Shown here in pieces: positions 2,183 through 17,332 of a DNA stretch of 64,000 bases. The position numbers and the translations under genes are program-made. Source of the DNA: Methylohalomonas lacus. Its GTDB lineage: Bacteria; Pseudomonadota; Gammaproteobacteria; Methylohalomonadales; Methylohalomonadaceae. The number at the start of each line of letters is the position of its first letter. The first letter of the stretch is position 1. Below the pieces are notes generated by a model, which was given only the letters and a program-made list of their open reading frames with translations, was not told where the DNA came from and made no database searches. Where the stretch lies: NCBI RefSeq assembly GCF_024808875.1, contig NZ_JANUCT010000001.1, forward strand, positions 1 through 64,000, written 5' to 3'.

Positions 2183-5100
2183 ATGGATCTACCACTCCAG
2201 GGCGTTTCGCAGGACGTTCTTAATACCAAGTACATGAAGGACGGCGAGACCGATCTGTCGCAGATTCACGATCGCATCGCGCGCTCGCTGGCGGCGGTCG
2301 AGTCCGATCCGGCGAAGTGGCAGCCGGTATTCCAGCGCGCACTCGACCAGGGCTTCGTGCCGGCCGGGCGCGTCGTTTCGGCGGCCGGCACCGATCTGCA
2401 GACCACGCTCATCAACTGTTTCGTTCAGCCGATCGGCGACTGCATGCGCGGCATCGATGACGATGGCTATCCCGGCATCACCGACGCGCTGGCCGAGGCC
2501 GCCGAGACCATGCGCCGCGGCGGCGGCGTCGGCTACGACTTCTCGCGCATCCGGCCGCGCAACGGCATCGTGCGCAAGACCCGCTCGACCGCCTCGGGGC
2601 CGATCTCCTACATGCGCATGTTCGACAGCATGTGCAAGACGGTCGAGTCGGCCGGCGCCCGGCGCGGCGCGCAGATGGGCATCCTGCGCTGCGATCATCC
2701 CGACATCGAGCAGTTCGTCGTCGCCAAGAGCCAGCAGGGCGAACTGACCCAGTTCAACATCTCGGTGGGTGTCAGCGACCCGTTCATGGAAGCGGTCGAA
2801 CAGGATCGCGACTGGCCGCTGCTGCACAAGGCCGAGCCCAGCGACGAACTCAAGGCCGAGGGCGCCTATCAGCTCGACGACGGCCGCTGGGTCTACCGCA
2901 CGATCCGCGCCCGCGATCTGTGGGACACGATCATGGAGCAGACCTACGACTTTGCCGAGCCGGGCGTCATCTTCCTCGATCGCGTCAACGCCGATAACAA
3001 CCTCTGGTACGCCGAAACCATCGAGGCGGTGAATCCCTGCGTCACCGGCGACACCTGGGTGCACACGGCGGAAGGCCCGCGCCAGGTGCACGAGCTGATC
3101 GGCCGCCCGGTCGACCTGCTGGTCAACGGCCGGCGCCAGCGCTCCACCGATGCTGGCTTCTTCGTCACCGGCGACAAGCCGGTGCTGCGGCTGATGACGC
3201 GCGAGGGCCAGAGCCTGCGCCTGACCGCCGATCATCCCGTGCTGCGCCGGGTCGAGCCGGCCGCCCGCAACGCGCTGCCGCGCAGCGAATGGGTAGCGGC
3301 CGGCGATCTGCAGGCCGGTGACCGGGTGATATTGCACGACCACGGCGCCGACATCGCCTGGGCCGGCGAGTCGAACGCCGACGAGGGTTACCTGCTCGGC
3401 CTGCTGCTGGGTGATGGCACGCTCAAGGCGCAGACCGCGACCCTGTCGGTCTGGGACGAAGCGGTCGCACCCGCCGCCGACGGCACGCTGCCCGGCAATG
3501 CCGTCATGCGCGCCGCCGAGACGGCCGCGCGCAGCCTGCCGCATCGCTCCGACTTCGGCGGCTGGCACGCGATCGAGGGTCGCAACGAATTCCGTTTGAA
3601 CTCCACCTCATTGCGCGATCTCGCCGGCCGCTTCGGCATGGCGCCCGGCCGCAAGGCCGTGACGCCGGCGATCGAACGCGTCTCCAGCGATTTCTATACC
3701 GGCTTTCTGCGCGGCCTGTTCGACAGCGACGGCAGCGTTCAGGGCACGCAGGTCAAGGGCGTGAGCGTGCGTCTCGCGCAGTCGGACCTGGCGACGCTGG
3801 AAGCCGTGCAGCGCATGCTCGGCCGGCTCGGCATCGGCAGTACCATTTACCGCGAGCGCCGGCCGGCCCGCCGCGCCCAGCTACCGGACGGCAAGGGCGG
3901 CCAGGCCGAATACGACTGCCGTGCGCAGCACGATCTGGTCATCAGCGGCGGCCACCTGCCGCGATTCGCCGAGCGCATCGGCTTCAACGATACCGCCCGC
4001 GCCGAGCGTCTGCGCCGCGCGCTGGGCAGCTACCGCCGCAACATCAACCGGCCGCGCTGGTACGCCACCGTCGACAGCCTCGAGGCCGACGGCACCGAGA
4101 CCGTCTACGACGTCCAGGTGCCGAACGTGCATGCCTTCGACGCCAACGGCCTGTACGTGCACAACTGCGGCGAGCAGATGCTGCCGCCGTACGGCTGCTG
4201 CGATCTCGGCAGCCCCGACTTGACGCGGTTCGTGCGCGATCCCTTCACGCCGGAGGCGCGCTTCGACTTCGATGCGTTCAGCGAAGTGGTGGCGACGGCC
4301 ACGCGCATGCTCGACAACGTCCTCGATGCGACCTACTGGCCGCTCGAGTCGCAGCGCGAGGAGGCGATGAACAAGCGCCGCATCGGTCTCGGCTTCCTCG
4401 GCCTCGGCGACGCGCTCATCATGCTGGGCCTGCCGTACAACACCCAGGCCGCGCGCGACAAGGCCGAGCAGATTATTGCCGCCGAGCGTGACGCCGCCTA
4501 TTGGGCGTCGGTGGAGCTGGCGCGCGAGAAGGGCGCCTTCCCGCTGTTCGACGCGGACAAGTACCTGGCCTCGGCCTTCACCCAACGTCTGCCCGAGGAT
4601 CTGCGTAAGGCCATTGCCGAACACGGCATCCGCAACAGTCACCTGCTGTCCATCGCGCCGACCGGCACCATCAGTCTGGCGCTGGCGGACAACGCCTCGA
4701 ACGGTATCGAGCCGCCGTTCGCGCTGGCCTACAACCGCCGCGTGCGCCAGCACGACGACACACACCGCGACTACCTGGTCGAGGATCACGCCCTGCGCGT
4801 GTTCCGTCACGTCAAGGGCATTGCCGATCCGCGCCCGGGCGAGGCCATCGGCGACTGGCTCATGGCGCTCAAGCCGCAGCTCGGTCCCGAGTGGGTCACC
4901 GCGCTGGAGATGTCGGCGGCCGACCACCAGAAAATGGTGTCGGTGATCGCACCGTACGTCGACTCGGCGATCTCGAAGACCGTGAACGTGCCGGGCGACT
5001 ATCCGTACGAGGACTTCAAGCAGCTGTACACGGAGTCCTGGAAACACAACGCCAAGGGCCTGGCGACCTACCGGCCCAGCGACGTGCGCGGCGCCGTGCT

Positions 5101-6202
5101 GTCAACCCACGACAGTAAGACCGAACAGGTCAGCGACATGGACGAGTCGGACCCGGACCGCCGCCTGCGGCTCGACGAAGTGCCGGAACCGCCGCTCGCC
5201 AGCCTGCGCTGGCACAAGCGGCCGCGGCCGGCCGCCGGCAACATGGCGTGGACGTATCTCATCGATCACCCGAACAGCTCGTTCGCCGTGTTCATCGGTC
5301 AGCTGTCGGGCGGCGACGGCCGCGAACAGCCGTTCGAGGTTTGGGTCAACGGCGCCGAACAGCCGCGCGGCCTCGGCGCGCTGGCCAAGTCACTGTCGAT
5401 GGACATGCGCTCCGCTGACCGCGCCTGGCTGAAGGCCAAGCTCGAGTCGCTGGGCAAGCTGTCTGCCGACGACGCCTTCGACATGCCCATGCCGCCGGAC
5501 GGCGAGGTCATGCGCCTGCCGTCACTGGTGGCCGCGTTCGCGCGTCTGGTGCAGTACCGCTGCGAGGCGCTGGGCGCACTGAACGACGACGGCGACACGC
5601 CGGTGCTGAACGCGCTGATGAGCGCCAAGGAACCGAAAACCGGCACCGACGGCACGCTGTCTTGGACTGTCGACATCAACAACCCGGCGACCGGCGACGA
5701 CTTCATGCTGGGCGTCAAGGAACTGGTGCTGCCGGACGGCCAGCGGCGGCCGTACTCGCTGTGGCTCTCCGGGGTCTACCCGCGCTCGCTGGACGGCCTG
5801 GCGAAGAGCCTGTCATTCGACATGCGCATCATCGACCCGGCCTGGGCCGGCGCCAAGCTGCGCCAGCTGCTCAGCTACGCCGAACCGCAGGGCGATTTCC
5901 TCGCCTGGGTGCCCGGTGCCGATCGCCAGGCCAGCTACCCGTCGACGGTGGCCTATATCGCCCGACTGGTGATCCACCGCTACGCCATGCTCGGCATCCT
6001 CGACGAGGAAGGCTATCCGATGGACGCCATGGGCGTGCTCGCCTACAGCCAGGACCATGACAACGTCGTGCCGCTACGCAACGCCGGCGCCCAGGAAGTC
6101 ATGCCCGGCCGCGGCTGCACCGAATGCGGCAACTACGCCGTCATCAAAAAGGACGGCTGTGACTTCTGCACCGCCTGCGGTGCTATGGGTGGGTGTGGCT
6201 AA
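2183..6202 (+). CDS. nrdJ: Adenosylcobalamin-dependent (class II) ribonucleotide reductase with intein
   Basis: Reduces ribonucleotides to deoxyribonucleotides using a 5'-deoxyadenosylcobalamin radical, so it needs no oxygen and no separate small subunit. The precursor is 1339 residues. Residues 1-285 are the N-extein, 286-661 an intein, and 662-1339 the C-extein, leaving a 963-residue mature enzyme. Visible motifs include NCFVQPIGD, GGGVGYDFSRIRP, the split NP/CGEQ active site, the phosphate-loop region APTGTISLALADN, two tandem repeats around residues 1020-1250 (each with an AKSLS[MF]DMR core), and a C-terminal Cys-rich tail CTECG...CDFCTACG that probably serves as the reductant or zinc site. 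No N-terminal ATP-cone is evident. The start is set by GGGGGAGA at 2170. Its last 358 bases are duplicated at 10357-10714 and an eroded relative lies at 8057-8156. The assignment is firm. Confidence 0.96.
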   Translation: MDLPLQGVSQDVLNTKYMKDGETDLSQIHDRIARSLAAVESDPAKWQPVFQRALDQGFVPAGRVVSAAGTDLQTTLINCFVQPIGDCMRGIDDDGYPGITDALAEAAETMRRGGGVGYDFSRIRPRNGIVRKTRSTASGPISYMRMFDSMCKTVESAGARRGAQMGILRCDHPDIEQFVVAKSQQGELTQFNISVGVSDPFMEAVEQDRDWPLLHKAEPSDELKAEGAYQLDDGRWVYRTIRARDLWDTIMEQTYDFAEPGVIFLDRVNADNNLWYAETIEAVNPCVTGDTWVHTAEGPRQVHELIGRPVDLLVNGRRQRSTDAGFFVTGDKPVLRLMTREGQSLRLTADHPVLRRVEPAARNALPRSEWVAAGDLQAGDRVILHDHGADIAWAGESNADEGYLLGLLLGDGTLKAQTATLSVWDEAVAPAADGTLPGNAVMRAAETAARSLPHRSDFGGWHAIEGRNEFRLNSTSLRDLAGRFGMAPGRKAVTPAIERVSSDFYTGFLRGLFDSDGSVQGTQVKGVSVRLAQSDLATLEAVQRMLGRLGIGSTIYRERRPARRAQLPDGKGGQAEYDCRAQHDLVISGGHLPRFAERIGFNDTARAERLRRALGSYRRNINRPRWYATVDSLEADGTETVYDVQVPNVHAFDANGLYVHNCGEQMLPPYGCCDLGSPDLTRFVRDPFTPEARFDFDAFSEVVATATRMLDNVLDATYWPLESQREEAMNKRRIGLGFLGLGDALIMLGLPYNTQAARDKAEQIIAAERDAAYWASVELAREKGAFPLFDADKYLASAFTQRLPEDLRKAIAEHGIRNSHLLSIAPTGTISLALADNASNGIEPPFALAYNRRVRQHDDTHRDYLVEDHALRVFRHVKGIADPRPGEAIGDWLMALKPQLGPEWVTALEMSAADHQKMVSVIAPYVDSAISKTVNVPGDYPYEDFKQLYTESWKHNAKGLATYRPSDVRGAVLSTHDSKTEQVSDMDESDPDRRLRLDEVPEPPLASLRWHKRPRPAAGNMAWTYLIDHPNSSFAVFIGQLSGGDGREQPFEVWVNGAEQPRGLGALAKSLSMDMRSADRAWLKAKLESLGKLSADDAFDMPMPPDGEVMRLPSLVAAFARLVQYRCEALGALNDDGDTPVLNALMSAKEPKTGTDGTLSWTVDINNPATGDDFMLGVKELVLPDGQRRPYSLWLSGVYPRSLDGLAKSLSFDMRIIDPAWAGAKLRQLLSYAEPQGDFLAWVPGADRQASYPSTVAYIARLVIHRYAMLGILDEEGYPMDAMGVLAYSQDHDNVVPLRNAGAQEVMPGRGCTECGNYAVIKKDGCDFCTACGAMGGCG
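3038..4165 (+). other. Intein with LAGLIDADG-type homing endonuclease, in NrdJ
   Basis: A 376-residue protein-splicing element (precursor residues 286-661) inserted between Pro and Cys of the NPCGEQ active-site motif. The N-terminal splicing block begins with Cys1 (CVTGDTWVHTAEG). Block B has the TxxH motif (LTADHPVLR). The C-terminal block (VYDVQVPNVHAFDANGLYV) ends in His-Asn and is followed by extein Cys+1, which is also the catalytic RNR cysteine. Between them lie two endonuclease motifs, YLLGLLLGDGTL and GFLRGLFDSDGSV, with both acidic residues kept. All residues needed for splicing are present, so it is probably active in splicing, and the endonuclease may be intact too. RNR large subunits are well-known intein hosts at this motif. 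Confidence 0.95.
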
Positions 6203-6204
6203 CG
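5847..6204 (+). repeat. Direct repeat, copy 1 (3' end of intact nrdJ)
   Basis: The functional copy of the 358-bp direct repeat whose second copy is at 10357-10714. The repeats bracket 4.15 kb of accessory DNA. Near-perfect identity implies recent duplication, ongoing gene conversion, or a single-crossover integration of a circular molecule carrying an nrdJ tail. Confidence 0.93.
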
Positions 6205-6522: not shown

Positions 6523-7989
6523 GTGGACGCAGGCTCAACTTTTTCATCATTTCAGGAAGTCATGGGCATGCAACTGCCCCGCATTCTGGGTGCTGTTATC
6601 GTACTGGCGGTCGGCTGGATACTGGCCATTATCATTCGCGCCGGCAGTCAAAAAGCACTCGCCGCCCTCAAGCTGAACCAGCGCATCACCAAGGAGGCCC
6701 ACACCAAGCCTGACGTTGATCTGGAGTCGGGCATATCAGCCGGTCTGTTCTGGCTGGTCATTCTGGTGACGGCGATTGCGATTCTGGACGTGCTCAGCAT
6801 GCAAGTGGTTTCGACGCCACTGAATGCGCTGGCGACCCAGATATTCGATTACATGCCGAATCTCATCGGCGGCACGTTGTTGATTCTTGTTGCCTGGCTG
6901 GTGGCATCGGCTATCCGTTTTCTCATCAATAAGACACTTACCTCGACCAGTCTCGATGAGAAGCTATCCAGTGAGGCCGGGATCAGCTCAGTCAGTGACA
7001 ATCTTTCAAATGCACTCTACTGGTTTGTCATCCTGCTGTTTTTACCCGCGATACTGAGCGCCTTCGAACTGCAGGGATTGCTGGCCCCGGTAGAGCGCAT
7101 GCTGGACAAGGTACTGGCGTTTATTCCGAATATCTTTGCCGGCGCGGTGCTGGGTGTGGTCGGCTGGTATGTCGCCAAGGTATTGCGTGATCTGGTCACC
7201 AACCTGCTTATGGCAACCGGCGCCGACAGACTGGGTCAAAAGGCCGGGCTGAATGAGGATTTCAGTGTCTCGCGGCTGGCCGGCATCCTGGTGTTCATCT
7301 TCATCTTCATTCCGGCGCTCATTGCGGCGCTGAATGCGCTGGAGATACGCGCAATCTCCGAACCGGCAACAGAAATGCTGGGTGTCATCCTTAATACCAT
7401 CCCGAACCTGTTCGCAGCGGTCATTATCATCTTCGTGACCTACTATGTCGCCAGGCTGGTTGCAGGGCTGGTCGTTAATCTGCTGGACAGCATGCAGTTC
7501 AACACCCTGCCGGAAAAAATCGGCTTGGCGGGTGTCTTCGACAGCAGCCTGACACCGGCGACCCTGGTCGGTCGTATCATCGTGTTCTTCGCCATGTTGT
7601 TCGCAACGGTCGAAGCCGCCAACAGTCTCGGTTTCGATCAGGTTAGCGAGATTGTCTCGATGTTCATCGAGTTCGGCGGTCAGATCGTGATTGGTGCCAT
7701 CATCCTGGTTGTCGGCTTCTGGCTGGCCAATCTCATTCACCAGGGCATTATGCGTGTCAGTGGTGAGGATTCCAGGGCACTGGCCGGTCTGGCCCGGGTG
7801 GCTATTCTGACGCTCGTGATTGCCATGGGCCTGCGCTCGATGGGTATTGCCAATGACATCGTCAACCTGGCCTTCGGCCTGACACTCGGCGCCGTTGCCA
7901 TCGCCGTGGCCCTGTCTTTCGGTCTGGGCGGCCGCGAGGCGGCCGGTAAACAGATGGAATACTGGCTGAGTAAACTGCGCAAGGAATAG
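6523..7989 (+). CDS. Mechanosensitive-channel-related multi-pass membrane protein (conserved TM helix repeats)
   Basis: About 488 residues with roughly ten to twelve hydrophobic segments arranged as repeats. Each repeat has a segment of the form P-x-[IL]-x-G-x(3)-[IL] followed by a helix, for example MPNLIGGTLLILVAWLVASA, IPNIFAGAVLGVVGWYVA and IPNLFAAVIIIFVTYYVA. The C-terminal ALSFGLGGREAAGKQMEYW is a glycine-rich turn found in the MscS-related TM-helix family. The canonical MscS beta domain is not evident, so gating by tension is only an inference. A GTG at 6523 with AAGGGG 7-8 bases upstream is the best start; the frame is open from 6472 but that ATG has no ribosome binding site. It is followed by a GC-rich hairpin (8017-8044) and then the eroded nrdJ tail. 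Base composition is lower in G+C than nrdJ. Confidence 0.8.
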   Translation: MDAGSTFSSFQEVMGMQLPRILGAVIVLAVGWILAIIIRAGSQKALAALKLNQRITKEAHTKPDVDLESGISAGLFWLVILVTAIAILDVLSMQVVSTPLNALATQIFDYMPNLIGGTLLILVAWLVASAIRFLINKTLTSTSLDEKLSSEAGISSVSDNLSNALYWFVILLFLPAILSAFELQGLLAPVERMLDKVLAFIPNIFAGAVLGVVGWYVAKVLRDLVTNLLMATGADRLGQKAGLNEDFSVSRLAGILVFIFIFIPALIAALNALEIRAISEPATEMLGVILNTIPNLFAAVIIIFVTYYVARLVAGLVVNLLDSMQFNTLPEKIGLAGVFDSSLTPATLVGRIIVFFAMLFATVEAANSLGFDQVSEIVSMFIEFGGQIVIGAIILVVGFWLANLIHQGIMRVSGEDSRALAGLARVAILTLVIAMGLRSMGIANDIVNLAFGLTLGAVAIAVALSFGLGGREAAGKQMEYWLSKLRKE

Positions 7990-8045: not shown

Positions 8046-8056
8046 TAACATTCCAC

Positions 8057-8156
8057 GACAACGTGGTGCAGCAGCGTAACGCCGGCGCCAGGGAAGGCAT
8101 GCCGGCCGCGGCTGTTCGGAGTGTAGCAATTACGCCGTCATCAAGAAGGACGGCTG
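8057..8156 (+). pseudogene. Eroded remnant of an nrdJ 3' end
   Basis: This stretch aligns with nrdJ 6058-6160 along its length but with many substitutions and several single-base indels that destroy the frame. Conserved words include AACGCCGGCGCC, GGCCGCGGCTG and TACGCCGTCATCAA. Many substitutions fall at third codon positions (for example GTG for GTC and AAG for AAA), so it derives from a divergent nrdJ rather than from decay of the local copy. It sits between the MscS-like gene and the HflK-like gene. Confidence 0.8.
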
Positions 8157-10284: not shown

Positions 10285-10323
10285 ACCCGCCGTGCCACAA
10301 AGCCTGGCATGGCGGGTTTCTTT
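10285..10323 (+). terminator. Rho-independent terminator after the hflK/hflC-like pair
   Basis: A 13-bp stem with one G-T pair (ACCCGCCGTGCCA/TGGCATGGCGGGT), a 7-base loop and a following TTTCTTT tract, 12 bases after the hflC-like stop codon. Confidence 0.85.
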
Positions 10324-10356
10324 GAAAAGCCGGGATACCCTGCCAATTTAGTCACT

Positions 10357-10714
10357 CCGGCGCCAAGCTGCGCCAGCTGCTCAGCTACGCCGAACCGCAG
10401 GGCGATTTCCTCGCCTGGGTGCCCGGTGCCGATCGCCAGGCCAGCTACCCGTCGACGGTGGCCTATATCGCCCGACTGGTGATCCACCGCTACGCCATGC
10501 TCGGCATCCTCGACGAGGAAGGCTATCCGATGGACGCCATGGGCGTGCTCGCCTACAGCCAGGACCATGACAACGTCGTGCCGCTACGCAACGCCGGCGC
10601 CCAGGAAGTCATGCCCGGCCGCGGCTGCACCGAATGCGGCAACTACGCCGTCATCAAAAAGGACGGCTGTGACTTCTGCACCGCCTGTGGTGCTATGGGG
10701 GGATGTGGCTAACG
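10357..10714 (+). pseudogene. Duplicate of the nrdJ 3' end (truncated, 358 bp)
   Basis: This repeats 5847-6204 with an offset of 4510. The first 331 bases are identical. The last 27 carry three differences (C to T, T to G, G to A relative to 6178, 6190 and 6193), all synonymous, so the final residues CTACGAMGGCG and the stop are preserved. An internal ATG would allow a 97-residue peptide from 10419, but it lacks a ribosome binding site and the whole RNR catalytic core. It starts 33 bases after the hflC-like terminator, and its stop codon lies inside an attC-like core. Confidence 0.93.
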
Positions 10715-10774
10715 CTTTGCTCTGGAAAAACCGAGGCGCAGCGCAGGTTTGTCTCTAGCAGCATTTTGTTATGC
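10707..10774 (-). repeat. attC-like integron recombination site f
   Basis: Read on the minus strand, the site opens with an R''-like core GCATAAC (10768-10774) and closes with an R' core GTTAGCC (10707-10713), with imperfectly paired arms between. The R' core overlaps the stop codon of the duplicated nrdJ tail, so the array's distal end is fused to nrdJ sequence. The R'' core matches that of site b. Weaker than sites d and e because the inner arms pair imperfectly. Confidence 0.6.
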
Positions 10775-10777
10775 ACG

Positions 10778-10806
10778 AATTAAATTACTCCGACCCCTTT
10801 TATTCT
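10778..10806 (+). repeat. RAYT-associated repeat, isolated copy
   Basis: Contains TTAAATTACTCCGACCCC, nearly the same as the inverted repeats that flank the RAYT transposase at 12361-12385 and 13139-13165. It lies between attC-like sites e and f, in a mini-interval with no gene. Confidence 0.75.
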
Positions 10807-10847
10807 TTTGGTATTGCCATAACTCCACCTTCCCTGTTTCCGATGAC

Positions 10848-10958
10848 GCTCAACGTTCAGTTGAGCGGCGCGTTACAGCGGGCTTGTCGGAAGTGAAAAT
10901 GCGAAGCCGCTAGAGGAAGGCCCGCTGTAATGCGTCCGCCTCGAACCGATGGTTAGAT
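10848..10958 (-). repeat. attC integron recombination site e
   Basis: Read on the minus strand, it begins with ATCTAAC (10952-10958) and ends with GTTGAGC (10848-10854), both exact fits to the RYYYAAC and GTTRRRY cores. Between them is a long hairpin with arms GCGTTACAGCGGGC and GCCCGCTGTAATGC. It directly follows the stop codon of the HNH gene, as expected for a gene cassette. At 111 bp it is within the normal attC size range. Confidence 0.88.
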
Positions 10959-10962
10959 TTCA

Positions 10963-11403
10963 CTATTTCGGCCTCCGCGCAACGATTTTATCTATGTCAC
11001 CTGCCGTGATCTTGTTGAACATAAATTTATGGCCATCCAACGAACTGTGGCATAGAGCGCATAGTGCACTCAAATTCGATTCATAGTTGTTCTTGGGATT
11101 TCTATCGTGGTGATGCACATGCAGAAGTTCTCGGCAGTCTTTCAAGTCTGCCTTACACCTCTGGCATCGGTATCCATTCTTCTCCCGGAAATTCGATGAT
11201 ATCGAAAATGACCATTCAAGTGTATAGGGCCCTTCGTCAGTTTCCGTACCTTGTACGAACGCTGCGTGTTCTGGATCGGGCCGCGAACCTTGGCCCAGAC
11301 GATATGGATCGGTGAGTTCGGGATCGTGGAACTCTTCGGACCAATCGCTTCCATCCCAGTCGTCTTGCGAATACTCATCGGATTGACGTCTGCGGGGAGG
11401 CAT
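10963..11403 (-). CDS. HNH endonuclease domain protein (integron cassette)
   Basis: A 146-residue protein. The N-terminal 65 residues are acidic and low in complexity. The C-terminal half is an HNH nuclease: a CQRCKAD zinc knuckle, then LLHVHHHDRNPKNNYESNL with the catalytic His pair and Asn, then CALCHSSLDGHKF as second knuckle. Such domains cut DNA, and many small HNH proteins act in restriction, mobile elements or DNA repair; the target cannot be inferred here. The gene starts eight bases after the R' core of site d and stops five bases before the R'' core of site e, the compact arrangement of a cassette. No Shine-Dalgarno sequence is obvious, which is common for cassette genes. Confidence 0.85.
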   Translation of the reverse strand: MPPRRRQSDEYSQDDWDGSDWSEEFHDPELTDPYRLGQGSRPDPEHAAFVQGTETDEGPYTLEWSFSISSNFREKNGYRCQRCKADLKDCRELLHVHHHDRNPKNNYESNLSALCALCHSSLDGHKFMFNKITAGDIDKIVARRPK

Positions 11404-11409
11404 CGGGAA

Positions 11410-11484
11410 ATCTAACGCCCGCCATAAACGGCGCGAGGAACGAGCGCCCGGCGGCAGAGAGCGAATTTGATGGCTTTGTTAGCT
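11410..11484 (-). repeat. attC integron recombination site d
   Basis: On the minus strand the R''-like core AGCTAAC (11478-11484) and R' core GTTAGAT (11410-11416) enclose 61 bases. Arms GCCATCAAATTCGC and the reverse side pair imperfectly, with a central GCGCTCGTTCCTCGCGCC-type stem. Its inner sequence is nearly the same as that of site a at 14479-14556, showing both belong to one array. Confidence 0.88.
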
Positions 11485-11694
11485 GACTTCCGCGCTACAC
11501 GCCGGACACTTAGGTTTTGTTGCACGCACTGCCTCCGAGTAGCTCATTTGAACTGGTTTCTCTACTTGTTTTGAAATGCAATCAAGGTTGTTGAAGGTCC
11601 AAATCCCATAGGAGGAATAAGGGTTGTCTTCTTCTCGGTAATAAGCGGATGCGATATAACCGCATGAACACGTAATCTCTTTTATTTCTGCTAC
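11479..11694 (-). CDS. Possible small Cys-rich zinc-ribbon protein (cassette ORF without a normal start)
   Basis: An open frame of 71 codons ends with TAA inside the R'' core of site d, as cassette genes often do. It encodes CSCGYIASAYYREEDN near the N terminus and CPACSAEVS at the C terminus, a CxC...CxxC pattern that could bind zinc. Just upstream in frame is a TAG stop, and the first codon after a possible ribosome binding site (AAAGG) is GTA, not a start codon; the first in-frame ATG leaves only 22 residues. Either the start has mutated, a rare start is used, or it is a decayed gene. The upstream lipoprotein gene ends only 12 bases away, so the two form one cassette. Confidence 0.45.
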   Translation of the reverse strand, partial: VAEIKEITCSCGYIASAYYREEDNPYSSYGIWTFNNLDCISKQVEKPVQMSYSEAVRATKPKCPACSAEVS

Positions 11695-11706
11695 GGAAAG
11701 CTACCT

Positions 11707-12045
11707 TTAACGATGCTCGATAATAATATCGCTATCTCTCCGTTCATCAGCACGGATGAAAGCAGGATGATCTTCATCAAGACAGCGAAACTCAAGAACC
11801 GTTTCACCTGCTTCATTGAACCACCGGTCATTTGTCATGCTGGATTTCAATAAACGCTTACCTTGAGACATGCAGAACTCTCCAGCCTCTTTATAAGCCA
11901 TAGTTGTTGATTTTGTGGTTCCGCCACAAGCTGGACAGGCTACCGTGCTAATCATGTATGAATCTGGCCCGGTAGGGACAATGTCGCCAGTCATGGTGCA
12001 AGACACAACTAAGCCAGCAATTGGCAACAAAAATAATTTCTTCAC
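11707..12045 (-). CDS. Small lipoprotein (integron cassette)
   Basis: About 112 residues with a lipoprotein signal: VKKLFLLPIAGLVVSC, where the lipobox is VVSC. Downstream lie a CPACGG motif and conserved-looking Cys residues. The start is the GTG at 12045 with AAAGGAGAAAAT upstream; the frame is open to an ATG at 12117, but that codon lies inside attC site c and the signal peptide would then be internal. The cassette boundary (R' core GTTGTAC, 12059-12065) falls just before the ribosome binding site, so the cassette brings its own translation signal. I do not recognise the family; an outer-membrane or periplasmic location is inferred from the lipobox. Confidence 0.75.
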   Translation of the reverse strand: MKKLFLLPIAGLVVSCTMTGDIVPTGPDSYMISTVACPACGGTTKSTTMAYKEAGEFCMSQGKRLLKSSMTNDRWFNEAGETVLEFRCLDEDHPAFIRADERRDSDIIIEHR

Positions 12046-12058
12046 ATTTTCTCCTTTT

Positions 12059-12125
12059 GTACAACTAGCGTTTTCATTAACCGGCGCCGACTTTGCCGGC
12101 GTCCGAATTGCATGCATAGTTAGCC
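12059..12125 (-). repeat. attC-like integron recombination site c
   Basis: Minus strand: GGCTAAC (12119-12125) opens and GTTGTAC (12059-12065) closes a 67-bp site whose inner stem is GACGCCGGC/GTCGGCGCC-like. The cores fit RYYYAAC/GTTRRRY loosely. Position directly upstream of the lipoprotein ribosome binding site supports it. Confidence 0.7.
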
Positions 12126-12235
12126 GTCATTTAGCTCATCCTTTTACGCAGATTTGAGATGTTAGGGAATCCACGAATGGGTACAGAGTCTATGTTAATA
12201 AAACAATTTGCAACAGGCGAAATAATTGCAAGAAG

Positions 12236-12360
12236 TGAACCGCCCCGGTTGTCCCGGAGACTGATTTGTGTGAGTCAGGCGGAAATGGCCTGACGGTTCA
12301 GGGTTTCATGGTACTGCTGTTCCAGTTCGACCGGTGGCCGGTAACCATTCGGTTCCAGGA
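12236..12360 (-). mobile_element. IS3-family insertion sequence remnant (3' end of orfB)
   Basis: Reading the minus strand, bases 12357-12275 encode EPNGYRPPVELEQQYHE followed by TLNRQAISA and a stop. This is the typical C terminus of IS3-family OrfB integrases (the YRPPxEFE motif). Beyond the stop, the element seems to end at TGAACCGCCCCGG (12236), resembling an IS3-type terminal inverted repeat. The remainder of the transposase is absent; the fragment is cut off exactly where the RAYT repeat begins, so the RAYT element or a deletion truncated it. Confidence 0.8.
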
Positions 12361-12385
12361 ATTAAGGGGTCGGAGTGATTTAATT
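12361..12385 (+). repeat. RAYT-flanking inverted repeat, left
   Basis: AAGGGGTCGGAGTGATTTAA, the inverted partner of the copy at 13139-13165. The pair brackets the transposase gene and probably marks the element's ends or its recognition sites. Confidence 0.85.
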
Positions 12386-12441
12386 TTCATCAGTTATTCG
12401 TTACTCTGACACTTGGCTCCATACACGGCAAAGGAACTGCC

Positions 12442-13143
12442 ATGCCCCGTAAGCCACGGATGTATCTACCCCATATTCCGGTCCATCTGGTCCAGCGTGG
12501 GAACAATCGGAACGCCTGCTTCTTCGCCGAGGACGATTATCACTTCTATCTCGACTGCCTCGGCCGGGGCCTGCGCCGCTATGGCGTCCAACTGCATGCC
12601 TATGTGCTGATGACCAACCATGTTCATCTCCTGCTCACACCCCAGGATGAAACAGGGATTTCGCGTCTAATGCAATACCTCGGTCGTCAGTATGTTGGCT
12701 ATATTAACAAGACCTACCGACGTAGCGTCACCCTCTGGGAGGGTCGCCACAAGGCCAGTCTGGTGCAGGCGGACAATTATCTGCTCACCTGCATGCGCTA
12801 TATAGAATTGAACCCGGTCACAGCGGGCATGGTGGAAAGACCGGAGCAGTATCCATGGACTTCTTATCACCACAATGCCTGGGGCAAAACGGATAATCTC
12901 ATCAGTCAACAATTGGTATATCAGGCACTGGGCGCATCATCCACCGAGCGCCAGCTCGCTTACCGAGCGTTATTCCGCAATCAACTTCCAGACACCGACA
13001 TACACGAGTTGCAGGCGTGTCTGACGTATAATTATCCCCTCGGCAATAGCCGGTTTAGGGATGAGATTGAGGCCATGCAAGGACGACCCATCGGCAAGCG
13101 TCAGCGAGGCAGACCGAGCAGTCCATCAACTGGCGAAGATTAA
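12442..13143 (+). CDS. REP-associated tyrosine transposase (RAYT, Y1/HUH family)
   Basis: A 233-residue single-strand DNA transposase related to IS200/IS605 TnpA. It starts MPRKPRMYLPHIPVHLVQRG, a typical RAYT opening. It has the HUH motif as HVHLLLT (about residue 57) and the catalytic Tyr in MRYIELNPVTAGMV (about residue 118), then a basic C terminus with KRQRGRP. RAYTs cut and move REP-like palindromes flanking their own gene. Here the gene is bracketed by inverted copies of a 20-base repeat, with a third copy 1.6 kb to the left. It has an AAAGGAA ribosome binding site and opposes the surrounding leftward cassettes, consistent with insertion into the array. All catalytic residues appear present. 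Confidence 0.93.
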   Translation: MPRKPRMYLPHIPVHLVQRGNNRNACFFAEDDYHFYLDCLGRGLRRYGVQLHAYVLMTNHVHLLLTPQDETGISRLMQYLGRQYVGYINKTYRRSVTLWEGRHKASLVQADNYLLTCMRYIELNPVTAGMVERPEQYPWTSYHHNAWGKTDNLISQQLVYQALGASSTERQLAYRALFRNQLPDTDIHELQACLTYNYPLGNSRFRDEIEAMQGRPIGKRQRGRPSSPSTGED

Positions 13144-13165
13144 ATCACTCCGACCCCTTTTTCCC
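13139..13165 (+). repeat. RAYT-flanking inverted repeat, right
   Basis: TTAAATCACTCCGACCCC followed by a T-run, overlapping the stop codon of the transposase gene. It is the inverted counterpart of 12361-12385 and near-identical to 10778-10806. Confidence 0.85.
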
Positions 13166-13173
13166 CTTTCCTT

Positions 13174-13674
13174 CTATGCCGCGGACAGGTAAGGCTGGAA
13201 CAGTGATTTGAGTTCACGGTTTTCCTCTGCAAACCAGTCTACAAGTGCCTCGATGTTTTCTTCCGCCGTGGAGTACTGGCGATCGTGCGAATTATTCTTC
13301 TCTCCGTCAATTCGATCAACGAGCCTCTGCATCTTCCAGGCGTTCTGAACGAACTGCTTTGCTTTGTCTTCTACGTCAGGCATCTCGAGATGTCCGTGCT
13401 GTTCGATCTCCCACTTGAACGTGTCGATCCGAGCCGCCAGTTTCCGGCTGCGTCTAACCTCTCCCATGTGATACAACGTCCAGTACGTGGAGCAGTAGTG
13501 CGAAAAGTGGTGCATCGCCTGAAACACCTGCAGTCGAAGAGGCCGCCGGCTTTCTCGCGTGGAAATCTCGTTAGCTCGCTTAGCCGCGTTCCGTGCGCCA
13601 CGAGAGTAGATTGTGGAAAGCACCGCGACAAGTAAGGCGGCCAAGGCAATGAAATCGGTTGGCGACAGTGCCAT
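13174..13674 (-). CDS. Membrane-anchored hypothetical protein (integron cassette)
   Basis: About 166 residues: one N-terminal transmembrane helix (FIALAALLVAVLSTIYS) followed by a basic stretch (RGARNAAKRANE) and a soluble, helix-rich domain with several Trp, His and acidic residues. I do not recognise the family. The frame is open to an ATG at 13686, but that codon lies within the R' core of site b (GTTATGCC); the ATG at 13674 is a better start. Its own downstream attC is missing because the RAYT repeat begins nine bases after its stop. Base composition is lower in G+C than the core genes. Confidence 0.65.
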   Translation of the reverse strand: MALSPTDFIALAALLVAVLSTIYSRGARNAAKRANEISTRESRRPLRLQVFQAMHHFSHYCSTYWTLYHMGEVRRSRKLAARIDTFKWEIEQHGHLEMPDVEDKAKQFVQNAWKMQRLVDRIDGEKNNSHDRQYSTAEENIEALVDWFAEENRELKSLFQPYLSAA

Positions 13675-13682
13675 CTTAAGCG

Positions 13683-13755
13683 GCATAACGCCTGTCTTCA
13701 GCCAGCAGCGGCATAGCGTAGCGAAGCCGCTGTCGGCTGCAAGGCATTGTTATGC
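13683..13755 (-). repeat. attC-like integron recombination site b
   Basis: A 73-bp palindrome whose outer arms are GCATAACGCC on the left and GGCATTGTTATGC on the right. Inner arms CAGCAGCGGC and GCCGCTGTCGGCTG form a long stem. The cores GCATAAC/GTTATGC resemble those of Vibrio-type attC sites. It lies six bases after the stop of the DUF2513-like gene. Confidence 0.87.
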
Positions 13756-13761
13756 ATAAAA

Positions 13762-14115
13762 TCACGACAACGCACCCCGGACCACCTGCGAGAGAGCGAT
13801 CTTTAGCGTCTCAATCGTGAGCGCAGACCCGCGCTCTACAACAATACTCTTGGCCTTTTCCCAAATAGTATTGTTCCTGGCCGCATCAAGGAAGTCATGC
13901 CCCGCGGATGTCAAAGAGGTCGCCACCCACTCAGGACCATCATCTGTCGACCAGTTCTGCGCATCGATAAGACCGGCCTCGAACAAAAGCTTAATGTGGT
14001 AGACAACCTCGTGCTTCGATCGATCCGGTATATCTGGAATGACAGGCTCATCAAAGCTTTCCAGCTCTTCTAGCGCAACCAGAATATCCCGAGCGAGCTC
14101 GATATCACGTTTCAT
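13762..14115 (-). CDS. DUF2513-like small protein (integron cassette)
   Basis: 117 residues beginning MKRDIELARDILVALEELES, a typical DUF2513 opening, followed by HEVVYHIKLLFEAGLIDA, which looks like a winged-helix fold, and then LTSAGHDFLDAARNNTIWEK. DUF2513 proteins are common in mobile DNA; many resemble MarR- or YjcQ-like winged helices, but no molecular function is established that I know of. Its start overlaps the end of the upstream lipoprotein gene by four bases, so the two are translationally coupled and share one cassette, ending at attC site b. Confidence 0.75.
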   Translation of the reverse strand: MKRDIELARDILVALEELESFDEPVIPDIPDRSKHEVVYHIKLLFEAGLIDAQNWSTDDGPEWVATSLTSAGHDFLDAARNNTIWEKAKSIVVERGSALTIETLKIALSQVVRGALS

Positions 14116-14462
14116 TCAGCCAGCCTCTCCAATTCTCGGCACGCATTATCGCCTTTGCTTAGCATCAACAGATTTCGAACCACACACATTTCAACCCAGC
14201 CGGAAATGTTGTTTGGCTGCACTGAAGCCTCAAACGCCTCATGATTAACGGAGCCATGATCACTGAACTCATATAACTCAACCCTGTCTCCAGCCCACTC
14301 GCCGCTCCATCCATCATTAGCGCCAACCATCTGAAAAATCTGCTGCTCGTCCTTCTCAAATCCTGCTACCTCCGCGCCATCGATTGACAAATTCTCTGCG
14401 GCTTGCCCGCAACCGAACAGAGCTAACAAGGCCACCAAAACTAGCGGATTCATCCTGCGCAT
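14112..14462 (-). CDS. Small lipoprotein (integron cassette, first gene of a two-gene cassette)
   Basis: 116 residues with a classic lipoprotein signal: MRRMNPLVLVALLALFGCGQ, lipobox LFGC. The mature part is acidic (NLSIDGAEVAGFEKDEQQ), with two later Cys residues. The start at 14462 has AAGGAGG seven bases upstream, and that ribosome binding site begins directly after the GTTATGC core of site a, so the cassette carries its own translation signal. It overlaps the DUF2513-like gene by four bases. The family is not recognised. A two-gene cassette pairing a lipoprotein with a winged-helix-like protein is unusual. Confidence 0.75.
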   Translation of the reverse strand: MRRMNPLVLVALLALFGCGQAAENLSIDGAEVAGFEKDEQQIFQMVGANDGWSGEWAGDRVELYEFSDHGSVNHEAFEASVQPNNISGWVEMCVVRNLLMLSKGDNACRELERLAE

Positions 14463-14478
14463 GGCATTACCTCCTTAT

Positions 14479-14556
14479 GCATAACGCTTCACATAAACGG
14501 CGCGAGGAACGAGCGTCCGGCGACCGTAGGGAGCGAATTTAATGTGATTGTTATAT
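14479..14556 (-). repeat. attC-like integron recombination site a
   Basis: A 78-bp site with outer arms GCATAACGCTTCACAT and ATGTGATTGTTATATGC. The inner sequence ATAAACGGCGCGAGGAACGA is shared almost exactly with site d at 11410-11484. The stop codon of the HEPN-motif gene lies inside its R'' core. Confidence 0.87.
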
Positions 14557-15048
14557 GCCATTCGGCACCCTCTCCAAGAACTTTCTTAGCAGGCATGCTG
14601 AATGCGTAAAATTTTCAAACTGGTCGTGCAGATCGTATGCCCACTTGACGCCATGAAAGAAATTATTTCTGAAACGATAAACTATGATCAGGCAACCGAT
14701 CAGCTGAGAAGCTGAATCTACATTCTCACCGGTTAGCACCATACGCACCAAATCGGGGTTGTCATTGTTACGTAGATGGAGATTCTCAAAGCGTTGGTTC
14801 GTATTACCGCCATCAACATATCGGTTGGAGAAGTAGTCTAAATGTTCAGCGAACCAACCGCCGCGAATGATCTCCGGCTCAGCATTTTCGACTTTCTCAG
14901 AAATCTTCCTGACGGATGCATTGCTCCCCAACATTTGAGCCTCGAACAGCGTCCAGAGCAGCGTAAACCTTTGCAGCGCTTCATGCTCTTCAGGCGACAG
15001 GTTCGCAACACCAGGAGCGATCCTTTCAATATCGGCTAGCTGAACCAC
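14551..15048 (-). CDS. HEPN-motif protein (integron cassette)
   Basis: 165 residues, predicted mostly helical. Near the C terminus it has IVYRFRNNFFHGVKW, which fits the Rx4-6H motif (R-N-N-F-F-H) of HEPN nucleases and HEPN-like toxins, domains that often cleave RNA. An upstream ENAEPEIIRGGWF segment supplies acidic residues. The start is a GTG at 15048 with AAAGGAGGG in good position. A core-like GTTATATGCC (about 15062-15070) upstream marks the cassette start. The stop codon overlaps attC site a. No MNT or other antitoxin is adjacent. The HEPN reading rests on one short motif plus fold appearance, so function is provisional. Confidence 0.65.
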   Translation of the reverse strand: MVQLADIERIAPGVANLSPEEHEALQRFTLLWTLFEAQMLGSNASVRKISEKVENAEPEIIRGGWFAEHLDYFSNRYVDGGNTNQRFENLHLRNNDNPDLVRMVLTGENVDSASQLIGCLIIVYRFRNNFFHGVKWAYDLHDQFENFTHSACLLRKFLERVPNGI

Positions 15049-15484
15049 AGACCCTCCTTTGGCATATAACTTAAATTCGATGCCCTAAATGGCGTAATAA
15101 ATCACCCCAATTTTGGGATCTAACATCAATGTTAATGCTCCATGTTGTTGTTTATACGTGCCTTTAATGAGTGTCTTAGAGCAAAATCGGACAAATAACA
15201 GAAGAGAAAACCAGACACGTATAACGCGTTTTCTCGCGCGTCACCACGTTGATGATTTCCCATCCCCCTGATTCTGGTGTCATGACCTTAGTAATTAATG
15301 GTTGCTCATAGGGACCATAGCGTCAATGTGATGCTCGGATGATGCAGCGCGACATTCCTGCTTATAGCTTTCTGCTTGGCGCTACCAGGCTGAAACCACG
15401 CAAAATCCTATTGTTTCCAGGTTCTGCTTTTTCCTGTGGGTGCCGGTGATGGCCATGCAGTGCGGTGACATACTGGTAGCGGTG
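15049..15484. other. Intergenic region between the cassette array and recQ
   Basis: The left end carries a cassette-boundary-like core (GTTATATGCC on the minus strand, 15062-15070). A short CCCAA/TTTTGGG palindrome lies near 15107-15118 and an ATCTAAC near 15119. No integrase gene, complete attI site or promoter is recognisable, and no coding sequence was found in the remainder. Confidence 0.4.

Positions 15485-17332
<1,848 letters not shown>

Follow-up and report, generated by a model that had tools for sequence, protein, structure and literature searches.

The first 64,000 nucleotides of contig NZ_JANUCT010000001.1 of Methylohalomonas lacus (assembly GCF_024808875.1), here called the window and the source of all coordinates unless another contig is named, carry an array of mobile integron cassettes without an integrase. 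In the terminology of IntegronFinder this is a CALIN, a cluster of attC sites lacking an integron integrase (PMC9024848, PMC12444791). As working criteria we used at least two attC sites in one orientation, spaced a few kb apart at most, and no integron integrase. Six attC sites, every one on the minus strand, fall within 3.9 kb of the window, and the genome searched (2.76 Mb, 99% complete, a draft in 38 contigs, searched piecewise) has no integron integrase. Because the attC sites are real and the integrase is absent from the genome searched, the array is a CALIN by definition: real mobile integron cassettes whose integrase is no longer present or was never there. The best overall explanation, which we consider very probable, is a six-cassette array without an integrase in the genome, presumably placed by an integrase since lost or supplied in trans, and now decaying. 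As such it is unexceptional and belongs to a kind already known. Nothing essential sets it apart from other CALINs; its own particulars are that one site has decayed, one cassette has no gene and a REP-type element is inserted. The small twist is that, of the three cassette loci in the genome, two have their end precisely on the stop codon of a neighbouring housekeeping gene.

The six attC sites

We took as attC a pair of cores, R'' RYYYAAC and R' GTTRRRY, with L''/L' pairing and an extrahelical base, and searched with two covariance models that contain no sequence from the window. Model R1 was built from 14 attC of class 1 and other plasmid integrons. The class 1 integrons were located on plasmids via the attI1 sequence, while the Desulforapulum and Salinivibrio plasmid arrays were reached by similarity search with window site 14479; the Salinivibrio and pHRM2a sites related to that site were left out. 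The R1 alignment, with its R''/R' and L''/L' pairs and one unpaired base, has strong covariation of the pairs. Model R2 is a 150-sequence alignment of attC from other genomes and plasmids, taken from an R1 scan of 369 genomes of the class and from the plasmid arrays.

The initial annotation, made from the letters alone, had described six attC-like sites and proposed a covariance-model search as a check. On the 64 kb, R2 returns exactly these six, on the minus strand, and no other place up to E=5; R1 finds four of them (13683-13755, 10848-10958, 11410-11484 and 10708-10774), again all on the minus strand and with a best E-value of 7e-9. In cassette order the sites, followed by the core that starts the first cassette, are:

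14479..14556, minus strand, attC 1: R'' ATATAAC, R' GTTATGC; R2 27.4 bits, E=3e-4; 88.9% identity with a site on a Salinivibrio plasmid
13683..13755, minus strand, attC 2, the most canonical: R'' GCATAAC, R' GTTATGC; R1 43.3 bits, R2 49.2 bits; fold z -3.7 and -4.4 (two strands)
12063..12125, minus strand, attC 3, decayed: R' GCTAGTT where GTTAGTT is expected; R2 16.4 bits, E=0.12 in the window and 0.01 in 5.3 kb
11410..11484, minus strand, attC 4: inner sequence in common with attC 1 (repeats D7 and D9); R1 23.6 bits, R2 31.7 bits
10848..10958, minus strand, attC 5, with a long central stem: R1 25.4 bits, R2 29.6 bits; fold z -3.1 and -4.3 (two strands)
10707..10774, minus strand, attC 6, terminal: R' GTTAGCC holds the TAA (10710-10712) that ends the nrdJ 3' fragment running towards it; R1 18.3 bits, R2 27.3 bits
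15061..15070, minus strand, core GTTATATGCC at the start of the first cassette: read from the sequence; no R2 match there

Five of the six R2 matches have E<4e-4, and the same five clearly show the attC cores and pairing; 12063-12125 deviates through its R'. With all speed filters off, R2 found no seventh attC on the minus strand over 10300-15600. As controls, six nrdJ loci of other species gave no R1 match up to E=1. A search with Rfam gave no match at gathering scores. When AAC and GTT were made obligatory and one mismatch was tolerated elsewhere, the window held 158 R''/R' pairs, and the top four for paired L''/L' arms with one extrahelical base all belong to the six sites.

Over about 70 bp, sites 14479 and 11410 share 89% of their bases with a site in a Salinivibrio plasmid array, and the attC directly before lnu(F) on pHRM2a has 84% identity with 14479. 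Both window sites closely resemble integron sites of unrelated plasmids and represent a recurrent attC type, with kin on plasmids of Salinivibrio and Halomonas; for 14479 there are also kin on those of Desulforapulum and Shewanella. The inner sequence said to be shared by sites a and d is real for this pair, but the letters fit only if the sites are counted from the right.

Single-strand folding, the other check that had been proposed, gives a divided answer: sites 13683 and 10848 beat shuffles and the other four do not. The failure of those four is what speaks for chance hairpins, terminators or REP sequences, an explanation whose probability we regard as negligible, given that significant model matches are limited to six sites on one strand and that these resemble the sites of plasmid integrons. 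Across the class, R1 matches at E<=0.01 occur in 150 of the 369 genomes, a count of attC matches regardless of integrases.

Integrase search and other attC loci

No IntI scored over the TIGR02249 cut-off of 265 bits in the genome searched, which extends to the whole assembly what had been noted for the window. The recombinases found are a XerD-like protein of 309 aa, which gave the best score (82 bits), a XerC of 300 aa, whose gene is flanked by DUF484 and hslVU and has dapF nearby, and a short phage-type protein of 264 aa on contig 1. R2 places no recombination site to the right of 14556, and we recognised no attI, attC or intI beyond the core at 15061-15070. With no IntI in the genome searched and no recombination site on that side, the locus is not a complete integron with intI, attI and a cassette promoter.

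The array could nevertheless be what remains of a complete integron at this position, with intI and attI deleted to the right of 15070. The first cassette does open with a full core, as it would after attI, and 400 bp of unassigned DNA separate 15070 from recQ. We consider this unlikely, as there is no integrase trace in six frames and no recognised attI-like feature, and as two more attC loci without an integrase would call for separate losses or secondary moves.

These two loci came from the search of the whole genome for further cassettes that the initial annotation had recommended:

contig 11 (L112), 7517-7594 and 7905-7976: attC pair beside dapD (PF14805); the array ends exactly at the dapD stop codon
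contig 4 (L262), 4020-4082: single attC, overlapping the end of a DUF2971 gene (region 4020-4909), with a degenerate R' GCTAGAT

The R' on contig 4 resembles the decayed core of window site 12063. Xanthomonas CALINs, which lie near lamG, secF/secD and recD (PMC12444791), are similar in that their cassette clusters occupy a few places on the chromosome, away from any intI; in Methylohalomonas lacus, in contrast, there is no intI anywhere in the genome searched.

Array ends, nrdJ copies and convergent stop codons

At its left end the array adjoins a copy of the 3' end of nrdJ:

10357..10714, plus strand, duplicated nrdJ 3' end: 358 bp, of which 355 are identical to 5847-6204; stop codon 10710-10712

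The description of the array as lying beside nrdJ is therefore right for this copy but not for the full gene, which is 4.5 kb away. The copy is identical to 5847-6204 for 331 bp, and its three mismatches are confined to the 27 bp closest to the array. A third, old nrdJ 3' fragment lies at 8053-8156 and is about 80% identical. The three copies flank mscS-like and hflKC-like genes. The full nrdJ (2183-6202) carries an intein in its barrel domain (residues about 329-661), with a LAGLIDADG homing endonuclease (PF14528, 1e-21) and a PF14890 match (5e-8) just below its cut-off.

A perfect repeat of 330 bp can mislead an assembler, and with 38 contigs the joint between nrdJ copy and array might be a between-strain assembly error. 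We judge this very improbable: some mismatches are peculiar to the copy, its junction with the array is clean and falls at an integrase core, and the older third copy suggests natural copying in this region; the attC evidence would be unaffected in any case.

The terminal R' of the window array, GTTAGCC, has as its complement GGCTAAC, the coding end of nrdJ (Gly-stop-C), and that of the dapD array, GTTAAAT, has ATTTAAC, the end of dapD (Ile-stop-C). In both multi-site arrays, then, a convergent core gene has its stop codon inside the R' of the last attC, and the crossover point G^TT therefore lies directly behind both stop codons. The nrdJ stop is the natural one, since the NrdJ end CxFCxxCGxxGxCG is at the same position in 77 related genes. 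The intact nrdJ end reads GGCTAACG, an unoccupied G^TTAGCC. A scan of 80 nrdJ loci, at most 65% identical, found none with the same neighbours.

IntI is reported to insert cassettes at chromosomal attG sites (Loot et al. 2024, doi 10.1038/s41564-023-01548-y, as cited in PMC12901181 and PMC12444791). Measured against attG as those citing papers present it, the terminal attC here is alike in meeting ordinary chromosomal DNA at G^TT, in this case right after a stop codon, and differs in that the window and dapD arrays are natural and old, lie at the 3' ends of convergent core genes, and have not yielded the other half of the target. The empty site itself is seen only as the paralogous nrdJ end, the right half of the target being absent from what was found. 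The sequence of the joint is suggestive of what cassette insertion at an attG-type chromosomal site would leave.

An integron integrase, acting in trans or since lost, would have put the cassettes at the nrdJ 3' end, by a crossover at G^TTAGCC, immediately after the stop codon, and the dapD pair would have entered likewise at G^TTAAAT. The nrdJ 3' copy would be recent, probably a product of homologous recombination during the arrival or a rearrangement of the array, which would have borne an nrdJ end that differed slightly. Alternatively, the array may have been imported as a block from a relative, by homologous recombination or on another mobile element, with an integrase never having acted in this lineage. 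A copy identical for 331 bp that then has its three differences together is what the end of an exchanged tract would look like. Block import nevertheless appears rather doubtful, as it leaves the dapD pair and the contig 4 site unexplained, and no flanking mobile element was found besides the REP-type element inside the array. A wider form of placement by an integrase is that one landed repeatedly, across the lineage, behind the stop codons of convergent core genes, so that nrdJ and dapD would be natural attG sites; a TAA followed by C would offer, in reverse complement, the G^TTA crossover at a spot harmless to the chromosome. This we put forward tentatively, at a little below even chances.

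Several points weigh against the best overall explanation given at the outset. Plain single-strand folding, a weak test, beats shuffles at only two of the six sites, and the score at site 12063 is weak. An integrase could sit in a gap, because the genome is a draft in 38 contigs. The sequence to the right of 15070 has no match to the DNA after intact nrdJ, so that the other half of the landing site was not recovered. A convergent stop codon lies inside R' in only four of 263 attC sites elsewhere (one of 73 terminal sites), and these four cases are in part apparent reversed genes inside arrays. Finally, the two stop-codon joints are suggestive only and could be coincidence, because R' (GTTA...) often supplies a TAA in reverse. 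The counts just given led us to reject a general rule by which array ends overlap stop codons.

Cassette genes and the REP-type element

Read on the minus strand from 15070, the array consists of the core, a 165-aa gene, a two-gene cassette, a 170-aa membrane-protein gene together with the REP-type element, a lipoprotein-like gene with a startless frame, an HNH gene and a gene-less remnant of 73 bp. As had been described, small leftward genes alternate with the sites, ending in or near R'' and starting just behind R', and the cassette DNA is poorer in G+C than the window (50% vs 61%). The components are:

14551..15048, minus strand, 165-aa gene: TAA in R'' of attC 1; invariant R-N-N-x-x-H; PHROG 27260, 4e-8
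14112..14462, minus strand, 116-aa lipoprotein-like gene (LFGC signal): read from the sequence; weak LptM signal-peptide match
13762..14115, minus strand, DUF2513 gene, 117 aa: PF10711, E=1.3e-28; 4-bp overlap with the gene at 14112..14462, in the same cassette
13174..13686, minus strand, 170-aa gene with an N-terminal membrane helix: no family match in the searches run
12364..13159, plus strand, REP-type element inside the cassette of the 170-aa gene and in the opposite direction to it: transposase 12442-13143; inverted ends AAGGGGTCGGAGTGATTTAATT and AATCACTCCGACCCCTT (inverted repeat I1)
11707..12045, minus strand, 112-aa lipoprotein-like gene: GTG start behind attC 3; read from the sequence
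11485..11700, minus strand, frame open for about 70 aa: its TAA falls in R'' of attC 4; lacks a normal start codon; no Pfam match
10963..11403, minus strand, HNH nuclease gene, 146 aa: likeness to the ZorE C-terminal domain (PADLOC PDLC00642, 2.7e-23, residues 189-275 of 283)
10775..10847, minus strand, gene-less cassette remnant, 73 bp: retains one isolated REP-type element end (10778-10799)

Gene families of nuclease or toxin type had been anticipated, and two cassettes are candidates, one with the ZorE-like HNH domain and one with a HEPN-type motif. The R-N-N-x-x-H of the 165-aa protein, invariant among eight relatives, is presumably comparable to the HEPN RNase motif; HEPN RNases have an invariant RX4-6H motif and an all-helical fold. 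Its structure model, made without an alignment, reached a pLDDT of 48, too poor for comparison with the HEPN fold, and the alignment-free models of two cassette proteins were too poor for a structure search. The relatives of the 165-aa protein are on alphaproteobacterial and Vibrio plasmids, where their neighbours are AAA ATPases, GIY-YIG nucleases, a Lit-type protein, a toxin-antitoxin pair and DUF262. For the HNH and membrane-protein cassettes no plasmid relatives were found. A Zorya system was considered and rejected: the HNH domain alone matches ZorE, and none of the seven array genes matches ZorA or ZorB. Judged from family resemblance, the cargo likely includes nucleases of defence or toxin type, and a defence, stress or toxin role is plausible for the HNH/ZorE-like and HEPN-motif cassettes. 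Expression of the cassette genes is probably weak or nil.

The REP-type transposase matches PF01797 (7e-13) and, at 3e-17, NF047646, its 62.8 bits lying under the cut-off of 80 for that family, so that it does not count as a curated RAYT. It resembles RAYTs in being a Y1 transposase with inverted terminal motifs, and differs from them in that its end motif is present in three copies only, all in the array, as well as in its score below the NCBI cut-off. Those are the only occurrences of the motif in the genome, the lone end lying 1.6 kb from the element, and the motif was not found in viral contigs. The transposase appears to have jumped into the array. Its insertion would be one of four steps of decay in the absence of an integrase, the others being the mutated attC core, the loss of the gene from one cassette and the frame left without a start.

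Calculation thus confirms what had been seen in the raw sequence, and adds a CALIN from a lineage without a close relative in the set searched (56 genomes, akin to the source at class level only). The nrdJ and dapD loci are two natural examples for testing cassette entry at the stop codons of core genes, and with the cargo two candidate nucleases, of defence or toxin type, join the cassette genes worth testing.

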